This document shows, one piece after another, positions 34,231 through 37,533 of a DNA stretch of 64,000 nucleotides. Numbering within the stretch: position 1 is the first letter of the stretch; each line of letters starts with the position of its first letter. This DNA is from Photobacterium indicum (GTDB lineage: Bacteria > Pseudomonadota > Gammaproteobacteria > Enterobacterales > Vibrionaceae): NCBI RefSeq assembly GCF_003026215.1, contig NZ_PYOC01000004.1, forward strand, positions 248,001 to 312,000, given 5' to 3'. The position numbers and the translations under genes are program-made. A model generated the notes under the pieces. That model was not told the origin of the DNA. It saw only the letters and a list, made by a program, of their open reading frames with translations, and searched no databases.

Positions 34231-34656
34231 TTAAATATGTTTATTGGCTTTTTCAAATACTAAGAAACGATCACCAGAATCCACGACTAACGTCTCATTC
34301 ACTACTTCAATATTAGTTGCATGACGTAAAACATTCATAATATTTTGCTCTTGTTCAACGATTTCTGGCAGGCACATTTTATGCGTCATCGCTGGTAGTG
34401 TGAAGTTCACCGCACCATCATCTAGATTCACTTTCCCTTTAAATAAGTTACATCCGGTAAAGCCTGCAACGCCTAGATTCTCTTCAATGGTCATACCCGG
34501 TTGGCGCTTAGTAATACCTGGAATACTAATCCCACCCTCAAGAACCCACTCACCCACATATTGATCAGATTCACTTAATAAGTGTTGATTTGAAAAGCAC
34601 CCCGTTAAAGGCAAAGCGAGCATGGCTAAAATGCAAAATTTAATTTTTTTCATCAT
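34231..34656 (-). CDS. META-domain (HslJ-like) lipoprotein
   Basis: About 141 residues. Signal MMKKIKFCILAMLALPLTGC ends with lipobox LTGC. The rest is a META domain: GEWVLEGGIS, FTGCNLFKGKV (the family's typical GCN motif) and TLPAMTHKMC. Related to HslJ, the heat-inducible envelope protein of E. coli, and to Leishmania META proteins; biochemical role unknown. The chosen start follows GGAAAG and begins the lipoprotein signal; an ATG 30 bases upstream is ignored as it would bury the signal. Confidence 0.8.
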   Translation of the reverse strand: MMKKIKFCILAMLALPLTGCFSNQHLLSESDQYVGEWVLEGGISIPGITKRQPGMTIEENLGVAGFTGCNLFKGKVNLDDGAVNFTLPAMTHKMCLPEIVEQEQNIMNVLRHATNIEVVNETLVVDSGDRFLVFEKANKHI

Positions 34657-34730
34657 GTAATTGTAACTTTCCGAGATACTAATCACCTTAAGTAACGGAT
34701 ACCCACAATTATTTAAGGTGATTAAAATTT

Positions 34731-34831: not shown

Positions 34832-35791
34832 CTACTTGATTACAACTTCAACAGAACGCTCGATTAGAGACTTGCCGTTGTCGTCTGTAAGTGGGTTCTG
34901 ATCAGCAACAGATGTTACTGTTAGGCGAGATACGTCAACACCGTTATCAACTAGGTACTGAGATACCGCGTTTGCACGTGCTTCAGACACTTTAGCGTTG
35001 ATTGCAGCAGTACCAGTTGAATCAGTACGACCGATGATTTCAGCTGTTAGTTCAGGGTTTGCTTGCAGCGTTTGTGCAACTTCGTTTAGGTTGTAACGAC
35101 CGTAATCGTTCACATCAACTTGACCAGTTTGGTAAGGAAGTACGAAGTTTGAACGAGTCATTGTCGTTACTTCTACAGGCACTTCTTTAACAACTTCAAC
35201 GTCCTGAGTTACGATCATTGGTGTTGCAGGTTGACCGAACTTATAAGTCATACCCCAGTAAACCTGATGTAGGTCAGTGTCTTGACCTTGGTTCAATTCT
35301 AGGTTCTGGTAGTAATCGTAACCAATCTTGGTTGATACAGCATTAGTTAGTTGGTACTCAAGACCAACACCCGCAGTACCAGTGAAGCTATCATCGATCT
35401 CACCTTCAGCAAAGATGTAAGTTGCACCCAACTTACCGAAGACAGATAGGTCTTGTGTAAAGTAGTAGTTACCCTTAACACCAAGAGTACCAAGGTGTAG
35501 ATCGGCATTACCTAGGTCATGCATGTAATCGTAGCTAGTGTAAAGACCAACATTTTTGTTGAAGTCGTAACCAGCTTCTAATTTAGAGCTAAATGCTTCA
35601 CCAGTACCGCCAACGTTAGACAGGTCATTGCTATCAACGATACCCATACCCATACCAGCACCGATCCAAAAGCCAGCTTTATCTACAGATTGAGTCGCAT
35701 CATTTGCAACTGCATCGTCAGCCATCGCTTGAGTAGCTACGCCTAAAGAAAGTGCAGCAAGAACTGATAAAGATAGTGATTTCAATTTCAT
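34832..35791 (-). CDS. ompA: OmpA-family outer-membrane protein
   Basis: A 319-residue protein: signal peptide MKLKSLSLSVLAALSLGVATQAMA, an N-terminal eight-strand barrel (about 40-190; WIGAGMGMGIVD, YKFGQ at the last strand), a short linker, and a C-terminal OmpA/MotB peptidoglycan-binding domain (about 200-319) with IIGRTDSTGTAAINAKVSEARA, which includes the Asp and Arg that clamp diaminopimelate. It joins the outer membrane to the cell wall. Strong GGAG ribosome-binding site and codon bias point to high expression. Divergent from a ToxR-like regulator; Vibrio OMPs are typical targets of such regulators. Confidence 0.94.
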   Translation of the reverse strand: MKLKSLSLSVLAALSLGVATQAMADDAVANDATQSVDKAGFWIGAGMGMGIVDSNDLSNVGGTGEAFSSKLEAGYDFNKNVGLYTSYDYMHDLGNADLHLGTLGVKGNYYFTQDLSVFGKLGATYIFAEGEIDDSFTGTAGVGLEYQLTNAVSTKIGYDYYQNLELNQGQDTDLHQVYWGMTYKFGQPATPMIVTQDVEVVKEVPVEVTTMTRSNFVLPYQTGQVDVNDYGRYNLNEVAQTLQANPELTAEIIGRTDSTGTAAINAKVSEARANAVSQYLVDNGVDVSRLTVTSVADQNPLTDDNGKSLIERSVEVVIK

Positions 35792-36470
35792 TATAAACTC
35801 CGAATTTTCTAATTGGCCACTCGTTAATGCGTACTGATTTTTTTCTATTGTACTGCCGAGGGCATGTCAGGAACGAGATACATACTGCGACTAAGTTCCC
35901 TACTGAACAAATAATAAAAAATGTTGTTCATTATTAATTAGGTTTATTCATTCCCATCAACAGTACGAGTTCTGAAACATGACATTTTCAGAAAAAAACC
36001 AAAACAAAGAGTGATAAAGATCGCAATTCAAGTTCTGAAAAACATAAAACCCAACACAAGAAAAACATAAAAACATAAAAAACAATAATTAACAGCAACT
36101 TAAGAAAGACTCAGGTTAAGTGCATTTATAAAACTACTCACTTCTGAAAGCTATAAAATGAAAATAAAAACACGCTAAAACAATGATTCAACCAATTAAC
36201 GTTCATGGCCGTCTCTTCCATAAATCCTTTATTTTGTTAGCATCCCTTTCGAAAAATAAACATGTGTGAATAACAATATGCCTGACTTTTTATACCATTG
36301 AGTATATTCATACGAATACCCAATATTGCACTTTGTCGAACATGGTTTCATTACGGTGTTATATAAAAACCATTGCCCTCAGTGTATTTAGCCGTCTTGA
36401 TAAACATCATTAAGAATAAGAAAGCGACAAACCTCTGGTTTTGTTGCATACAATAAATAGGTAACAGCAC
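35792..36470. other. Divergent region between ompA and the ToxR-like operon
   Basis: About 680 very AT-rich bases with repeated A/T tracts (35990-36180, several AAAACATAAAAA runs), the kind of sequence bound by ToxR-family and H-NS proteins. It must hold the ompA promoter with a long leader and the promoter of the regulator. No gene is supportable. Confidence 0.45.
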
Positions 36471-37106
36471 ATGATCATCTATAAGCATGGTAATGATATT
36501 TTTGAGCCTCAGAAAAGTGCTTTTCGAACCACAGAAAGCACGACAAAACTCAGTGCGAGCGAAACTAAAGTTTTGCAGTATTTGATTGAAAATAATGGCG
36601 AGATAATTACACGAGAAAAATTGCTAGAGATAGGATGGCCCAACAAGGTTGTTGTACCTAACTCACTGAATGTAGCCATTGCTAATTTAAGAAAAGCATT
36701 CAAAACCAAGATCGAAATTATTATCACGATTAAAGGTGCGGGGTTTACGATTGCCAAAAATACCTTTATTCAACATACAATACAACCAGAACCAATCTCT
36801 CTGGTTAATGAAGAAATGGATGCAGAAAAGTCAGAGAAAAAAAGCATTAGCAGCCATAACGATGGTCATTCAATAAGCAAATCTAAACGCCAACTATTTC
36901 AAACGGTATCTTTTAGTGTTTCTGTTGTGGTGGTGTTTACGTGGGTCACGTTATGGGTGAGTAGCTGGCAATCGCCGCCTTGCATCAGCTTTAATGAACA
37001 AGAAATTTGCGGCAATATTGAATTGCTCAATCTAGAAGATCTTCCAAAAACAGCAAGTCATTCTCTCTATATCGATTTTAAAGGTAACATTTATGAAGCA
37101 CAGTAA
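36471..37106 (+). CDS. ToxR-like membrane-bound winged-helix regulator (TcpP/VtrA type)
   Basis: A 211-residue protein with an OmpR/ToxR-type winged helix at the N-terminus (about 20-95: SASETKVLQYLIENNGEIIT, then W...V.PNSLNVAIANLRKAF and TIKGAGFTI), a charged linker, one membrane helix (about 143-165) and a short periplasmic tail of about 46 residues holding Cys171 and Cys180. It lacks a receiver domain, so it belongs to the one-component membrane regulators of Vibrionaceae (ToxR, TcpP, VtrA). The next gene overlaps it by 14 bp and encodes a small membrane/periplasmic protein, the arrangement of ToxRS, TcpPH and VtrA/VtrC. Regulatory target is not known; ompA is the adjacent candidate. Confidence 0.82.
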   Translation: MIIYKHGNDIFEPQKSAFRTTESTTKLSASETKVLQYLIENNGEIITREKLLEIGWPNKVVVPNSLNVAIANLRKAFKTKIEIIITIKGAGFTIAKNTFIQHTIQPEPISLVNEEMDAEKSEKKSISSHNDGHSISKSKRQLFQTVSFSVSVVVVFTWVTLWVSSWQSPPCISFNEQEICGNIELLNLEDLPKTASHSLYIDFKGNIYEAQ

Positions 37107-37533
37107 ACTCATATTGATAGCGTTTATTGCCTTTGTAGGATTATTGCTATTTCCTATTATCAACGGGTTTGGCTGCGATTTTAGTTTCAAATACATGATT
37201 GGTGATCGTGAAGAGTTTGGCAGCTGTAAACTTGGGCAGTACACATTAATTGACTACCCAGATAAAGATAACGGCTATACCGTACTTAACGGTTGGTATT
37301 TTAATATCTTTAATAATGCCGTGATTGTAGTAACCAGCCACGAAGATCATACTAAAAAAATGACCCCAGAAGTCATGAGTGCTATCAATGTATTAAATCA
37401 ACGTTCTTGGTATCAAATGAGCATGAAACAAATATCTCCAGCCCATATGGCGGTCTATACCAATACCCCATCAGATACCATGAAGGTTATTCAATACAAG
37501 GGCAAGCTGTCTCTGTTAGATAAAGACGCTTAA
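37093..37533 (+). CDS. Membrane-anchored periplasmic partner of the ToxR-like regulator (ToxS/TcpH/VtrC-like by position)
   Basis: A 146-residue protein with an N-terminal signal anchor (about 5-25) and a periplasmic domain with Cys28 and Cys45. It shares no obvious sequence with ToxS, but size, topology and the 14-bp overlap with the regulator match the second component of these co-component systems; VtrC in V. parahaemolyticus binds bile salts together with VtrA. AAGGTAAC is the ribosome-binding site, inside the end of the regulator gene. Its 3' end overlaps the convergent cueR by 4 bp. I infer a ligand-sensing or stabilising role; no ligand can be named. Confidence 0.75.
   Translation: MKHSKLILIAFIAFVGLLLFPIINGFGCDFSFKYMIGDREEFGSCKLGQYTLIDYPDKDNGYTVLNGWYFNIFNNAVIVVTSHEDHTKKMTPEVMSAINVLNQRSWYQMSMKQISPAHMAVYTNTPSDTMKVIQYKGKLSLLDKDA

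Follow-up and report, generated by a model that had tools for sequence, protein, structure and literature searches.

Co-component systems are described in the available part of PMC9214523 as virulence cassettes of enteric bacteria, and the way in which their periplasmic partner signals across the membrane is called an unknown link in the accessible text of PMC13042144. In VtrA/VtrC, the bile-acid receptor of Vibrio parahaemolyticus, a domain of the regulator completes the barrel of the partner, according to the same part of PMC9214523. Here, we analyzed a stretch of 64,000 nucleotides from Photobacterium indicum (contig NZ_PYOC01000004.1, positions 248,001 to 312,000, forward strand; called the window for simplicity), which contains two overlapping genes termed REG and PART. 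We propose, with a probability of roughly 0.65, that they encode a co-component pair in which PART senses an envelope signal and couples to REG, and REG acts on the region of the adjoining ompA gene. The two genes are:

36471 to 37106, forward strand: REG, a membrane-tethered winged-helix regulator of 211 amino acids, composed of a winged helix-turn-helix (about residues 25-93), a variable linker, a transmembrane (TM) helix (about 137-167) and a periplasmic tail of 46 amino acids with C171 and C180.
37093 to 37533, forward strand: PART, a membrane-anchored periplasmic partner of 146 amino acids with C28 and C45, predicted to adopt an eight-stranded, VtrC/ToxS-like broken barrel.

The original prediction had described a winged helix, one TM helix and a 46-residue tail with two cysteines, encoded by a gene overlapping by 14 bp that of an anchored 146-residue protein with two cysteines, and all of these parts were recovered. 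The N-terminal residues 25-93 of REG match the CadC/ToxR-type winged helix PF00486 in Pfam (E 1.3e-13). Hydropathy places the TM segment at 148, numbered in the 213-codon open frame which begins two codons 5' of the ATG, and leaves the 46-residue tail; helix 137-167 of the AlphaFold model agrees with one TM helix and a periplasmic segment after it. C171 and C180 are identical in all 22 rows of the REG alignment (window row included). The positions invariant outside the winged helix, i.e. W158, L161, W162, W166, Q167, P169, C171, C180, G181, N182, I183, L186 and G205, cover the membrane exit and the tail, and the linker varies freely; in the regulator type of P. ganghwense (L052/L077, P0030) it is far longer than in the window. 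The overlap of the two genes (37093-37106) is read in different frames, so that the start of PART lies within the end of REG. Residues 2-26 of PART form a hydrophobic N-terminal helix that serves as its anchor.

The predicted model of PART is an eight-stranded lipocalin-like barrel with VtrC and ToxS among its top structural matches, in line with the layout shared with VtrA/VtrC and ToxR/ToxS that had been expected; PART is thus probably barrel-shaped. C28 lies just before the first strand (b1) and C45 within the second (b2) of this model. PART matched no Pfam and no NCBIfam family, and 24 aligned relatives gave unrelated single matches only, at best E 0.058 in Pfam (three) and 0.002 in NCBIfam. 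PF17323 (ToxS) was not matched and the profile-profile probability with ToxS was 3.7%, which agrees with the expectation that the partner is not a ToxS homologue by sequence. Nor did any VtrC chain appear among the sequence or profile matches up to E 10. Neither PART nor the 24 relatives matched the FidL-like partner family in Pfam.

A separate co-component member had been predicted, and the winged-helix tree points the same way: the ten ToxR winged helices cluster together (95/94, present in 100% of 200 bootstrap trees) with REG outside, in an alignment of 78 columns only. The genome encodes the canonical ToxRS elsewhere, at a locus where a ToxS gene matches PF17323 (contig C12, E 4.4e-78). 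REG and PART share with the co-component systems (coTTR; Kinch et al., 2022) the winged helix, the single TM helix, the overlapping downstream gene for an anchored protein and the predicted eight-stranded partner barrel, so that membership of this superfamily is very likely. As part of the explanation proposed above, and with the confidence given there, they would form a family separate from ToxRS, TcpPH and VtrAC. The order of parts is that of ToxR/ToxS, and the strand-helix order of PART is that of ToxS as presented in the accessible text of PMC13042144; the winged helix of REG belongs to a separate branch, and the 46-residue tail has about half the length of the 96 amino acids which follow the TM helix of ToxR in the same genome. 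The predicted fold of PART resembles VtrC, yet there is no sequence match, two cysteines are located at the first two strands of PART, and the short REG tail holds a cysteine pair that VtrA lacks according to the part of PMC9214523 available. The FidL/YqeJ/BprQ-type partners (of GrvA, MarT, YqeI and BprP) are lipocalin-like and have a cysteine pair as PART does, but their disulfide is reported there to join the first and last strands, unlike the positions of C28 and C45. For TcpP/TcpH and PsaE/PsaF, the same source reports that the genes overlap and that the regulator has a reduced periplasmic fold, as in REG-PART, with the start codon of the second gene overlapping the codon of a tail cysteine. 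In contrast, the REG-PART overlap encodes the last four residues of REG, well past both cysteines. No description of the pair was found in the literature covered, which left out most subscription papers.

Two further genes lie on the other side of REG:

34832 to 35791, reverse strand: ompA, encoding a beta-barrel and a PF00691 domain, the proposed target, found in 24 of 52 genomes, exactly those with REG.
34231 to 34686, reverse strand: a META-domain (HslJ-like) gene downstream of ompA, with a lipobox-like start by eye.

The ompA gene is divergent from REG across 679 bp with 68% A+T, as expected from the about 680-bp AT-rich region of the original prediction. Only suggested there, the link to ompA gains support here: presence and absence coincide across the 52 genomes, and certain DNA elements are nearly restricted to carriers. 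PART was found in 25 of 52 Photobacterium genomes (24 strong matches, one distant), REG in 24 (E 1e-15) and OmpA (E 1e-30 or better) in the identical set of 24. By coordinates, ompA and REG are divergent neighbors in 23 carriers; in G022 they lie on separate contigs, and the REG gene of G047 is itself spread over two. The usual order is META and ompA leftward, REG and PART rightward, merR leftward and copA rightward, with META adjoining ompA in all 18 ompA-holding regions (the window and 17 fetched), that of P. ganghwense included. The two proteins in the P. frigidiphilum and P. profundum regions are nearly identical to those of the window (REG 99% in both, PART 99% and 98%, respectively), which places the window in the P. 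profundum group. Since the pair recurs and REG precedes PART in all Photobacterium loci read, it is not a chance reading. A neighboring thioredoxin-TPR gene, presumably CnoX, was found in 51 of the 52 genomes, hence genome quality does not explain the pattern. In the tree of this gene (50 genomes, 23 carriers) 22 carriers group together, and P. ganghwense (G014, matched by coordinates to locus L128) falls among the non-carriers; the co-occurrence therefore represents few independent events. In P. ganghwense META, ompA, REG and PART stay together, merR-copA is absent from the 6 kb read alongside, the thioredoxin-TPR gene is on another contig and OmpA groups with that of P. profundum (94/82). 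This fits module transfer or repeated loss elsewhere, and the genes stay together either way. HslJ, which the META product resembles, belongs to the fold class of ToxS and PART. In a second REG-like gene (L079, G038:C7:982193-982687) the frame is interrupted, and no partner was seen in the 3.5 kb read.

Alignment of the 18 intergenic regions made two elements stand out, listed with a candidate promoter hexamer:

36213 to 36243, forward strand: conserved element, which by eye reads as a putative extended -10 promoter for REG and PART.
35970 to 35993, without strand: palindrome TTCTGAAA-N8-TTTCAGAA, candidate operator, located some 180 bp upstream of the start codon of ompA.
35911 to 35916, reverse strand: hexamer TATTAT, by eye the candidate -10 of ompA, in a block conserved in the 18 regions.

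The element at 36213-36243 consists of TTCCAT, 16 nt and TAGCAT, with TG one base before the latter and TGTTAGCAT overlapping the -10. It occurs in 21 of the 52 genomes, one copy each and all in carriers, and the reversed pattern had zero matches in the same genomes. The palindrome occurs in 18/24 carriers, always between ompA and REG, and in 1/28 non-carriers, with arms nine bases apart; these are the fair counts, as the 15 aligned palindrome rows were chosen by exact match and have identical arms by construction. Among the carriers in which it was not found, G022 and G047 have the region interrupted by contig ends. Because the carriers are related, the counts for both elements amount to few independent observations. 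The P. indicum genome has one copy each of the conserved block (with as many as 3 mismatches allowed) and of the exact palindrome, and these patterns gave no further targets of a wider regulon. Rfam gave no match up to E 1 in 35700-36600. Promoter-like sites in a sigma-70 scan (5 versus a shuffle mean of 9.0) and terminator-like sites (4 versus 1.5 in shuffles) were not used as evidence.

The position of the pair beside one particular outer-membrane protein gene in Photobacterium suggests that it probably senses the envelope state and controls that gene. As for contact, ligand and direction of regulation, we infer that the broken barrel of PART would sense either a small hydrophobic ligand or a condition of the envelope and engage the two-cysteine tail and/or the TM helix of REG, which would alter the stability or pairing of REG. 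The winged helix would then act between ompA and REG, with the palindrome as the most likely site, and so determine how much of the adjoining OmpA, and perhaps of REG and PART, is made.

Several observations weigh against this proposal. VtrC outscores unrelated lipocalins by less than 2 Z units in the fold comparison of PART. The model of REG is weak (pLDDT 61.5, pTM 0.34), so that the fold of the tail, with strands at 171-174, 177-181, 199-201 and 207-209 modeled at middling confidence, is unsure. The carrier pattern needs a minimum of two changes on the thioredoxin-TPR tree. The palindrome was not found in 6/24 carriers; P. ganghwense has no half-site, P. damselae has two direct half-sites, and the reversed palindrome, used as control, gave two matches, both in P. 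ganghwense, a genome without the palindrome. Finally, most relatives of the pair elsewhere in Vibrionaceae are not beside ompA, among the loci listed.

These relatives were collected with a profile from 11 partners, matching 40 of 296 Vibrionaceae genomes at E 0.01, and one from 24 partners, matching 71 of 329 at E 0.001 in 4 of 13 genera; the latter was partly built from matches of the former, and the E-values of those rows are not independent. Fifty-nine matches were examined (window orthologs excluded, the weak match G203:C20 with an internal stop left outside), many from closely related genomes. The upstream open reading frame matches PF00486 in 55 of 58, and the family is credible because weak sequence matches coincide with an independent neighbor. 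The three upstream frames without PF00486 (L280, L281, L283) look by eye like second partner genes, and L264 was set aside: its partner gene is open and its regulator frame broken, the close relatives L261 and L263 being open. At least two cysteines follow the anchor in 45 of the 59 partners, typically as N-G-x-x-C and another some 17 residues later. There are relatives in which one protein has neither cysteine and the other retains both (L276 and L278 versus L137, L138 and L259), so that each pair probably forms an intra-chain disulfide; an inter-chain REG-PART disulfide is disfavored on the same grounds.

In 14 of the 55 regulators the chain ends at most 9 residues from the predicted membrane segment, and the partner is retained. 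Barrel completion by a regulator domain as in VtrA/VtrC cannot apply to them. The same proteins bear on the reading of PART as a stabilizer instead of a sensor, which shields REG from proteolysis or aids its disulfide as reported for ToxS, with redox state or proteolysis as the input. These regulators have almost no tail to protect, and we consider this reading rather unlikely.

The palindrome and the promoter-like block could also serve other factors, or the palindrome could be an RNA hairpin of the ompA leader, since a transcript starting further upstream would contain its 8-bp arms, which could then pair. With TATTAT as the -10, in contrast, the palindrome would lie upstream of the ompA promoter, and neither element is found much outside the REG carriers. 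A role independent of REG thus appears rather unlikely, at a level similar to that of the stabilizer.

A true co-component pair with its main targets elsewhere, ompA being a co-inherited neighbor only, would account for the distant relatives, most of which adjoin other genes among the loci listed: L143 alone, among the neighbors scanned with Pfam, follows a PF00691 OmpA gene. Shared inheritance would also explain much of the co-occurrence, most carriers being one group. On the other hand, P. ganghwense keeps ompA with REG-PART although merR-copA and the thioredoxin gene lie elsewhere, and the carrier-linked elements lie within the shared region, with one copy in each genome at the search stringency used, which leaves this explanation doubtful.

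A diverged ToxR/ToxS duplicate is highly improbable: the architecture is the same and ToxR is the closest solved winged helix to REG (structural comparison spanning residues 1-97, i.e. the winged helix), but the exclusion of REG from the ToxR group, the lack of PF17323 in PART together with the 3.7% profile probability, the canonical ToxRS elsewhere in the genome and the tail of 46 versus 96 amino acids all speak against a plain ToxRS duplicate.

Extending the proposed co-component reading, META, ompA, REG and PART might tentatively be regarded as a self-contained, occasionally transferred envelope module, whose sensor pair monitors the outer membrane and, by way of a single operator in each genome, regulates its own OmpA as essentially the sole target. 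Within the large unnamed partner family, the periplasmic domain of the regulator would have been shortened and even lost in several lineages, and in the latter the signal would pass via the membrane helices and not by barrel completion of the VtrA/VtrC type.

Other arrangements were seen among the loci listed. Some lineages of the family besides that of the window adjoin surface genes (L143, L149 and L137), whereas the majority of those read do not. Nine pairs (L149, L265, L266, L268, L269, L271, L273, L277 and L279) form a tail-less, cysteine-free subfamily located 0-4 bp behind a barrel-like outer-membrane gene, identified as beta-barrel plus LysM by Pfam in L149 and by eye in its eight close relatives, where a similar gene ends 0-4 bp before the regulator open frame. 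A second small partner-like gene comes next in 7/9, and an OmpA-like motif gene (pattern only) follows about 520 bp further in 5/9. The pairs L137, L138 and L259 lie directly behind a chaperone-usher usher gene (PF00577 shown in L137), and their regulator tails have no cysteines. One Vibrionaceae genome (G286; L135, L141) holds four pairs, two convergent and two tandem. The P. indicum genome contains, besides REG-PART and ToxRS, four membrane winged-helix genes with an overlapping downstream frame, membrane-anchored by eye (L015/L151 on C12, L021 on C37, L022 and L023 on C1, L028 on C6), and hence may hold six co-component pairs.

REG-PART is an easily testable system, as only one target is proposed, the DNA region is short and a relative is free-living, and in the relatives with tail-less regulators transmembrane signaling by a periplasmic partner can be tested directly. 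Since the pair belongs to marine Photobacterium, is linked to an OmpA and includes a partner outside Pfam and NCBIfam, the co-component kind is wider than the described cassettes and may serve envelope homeostasis.
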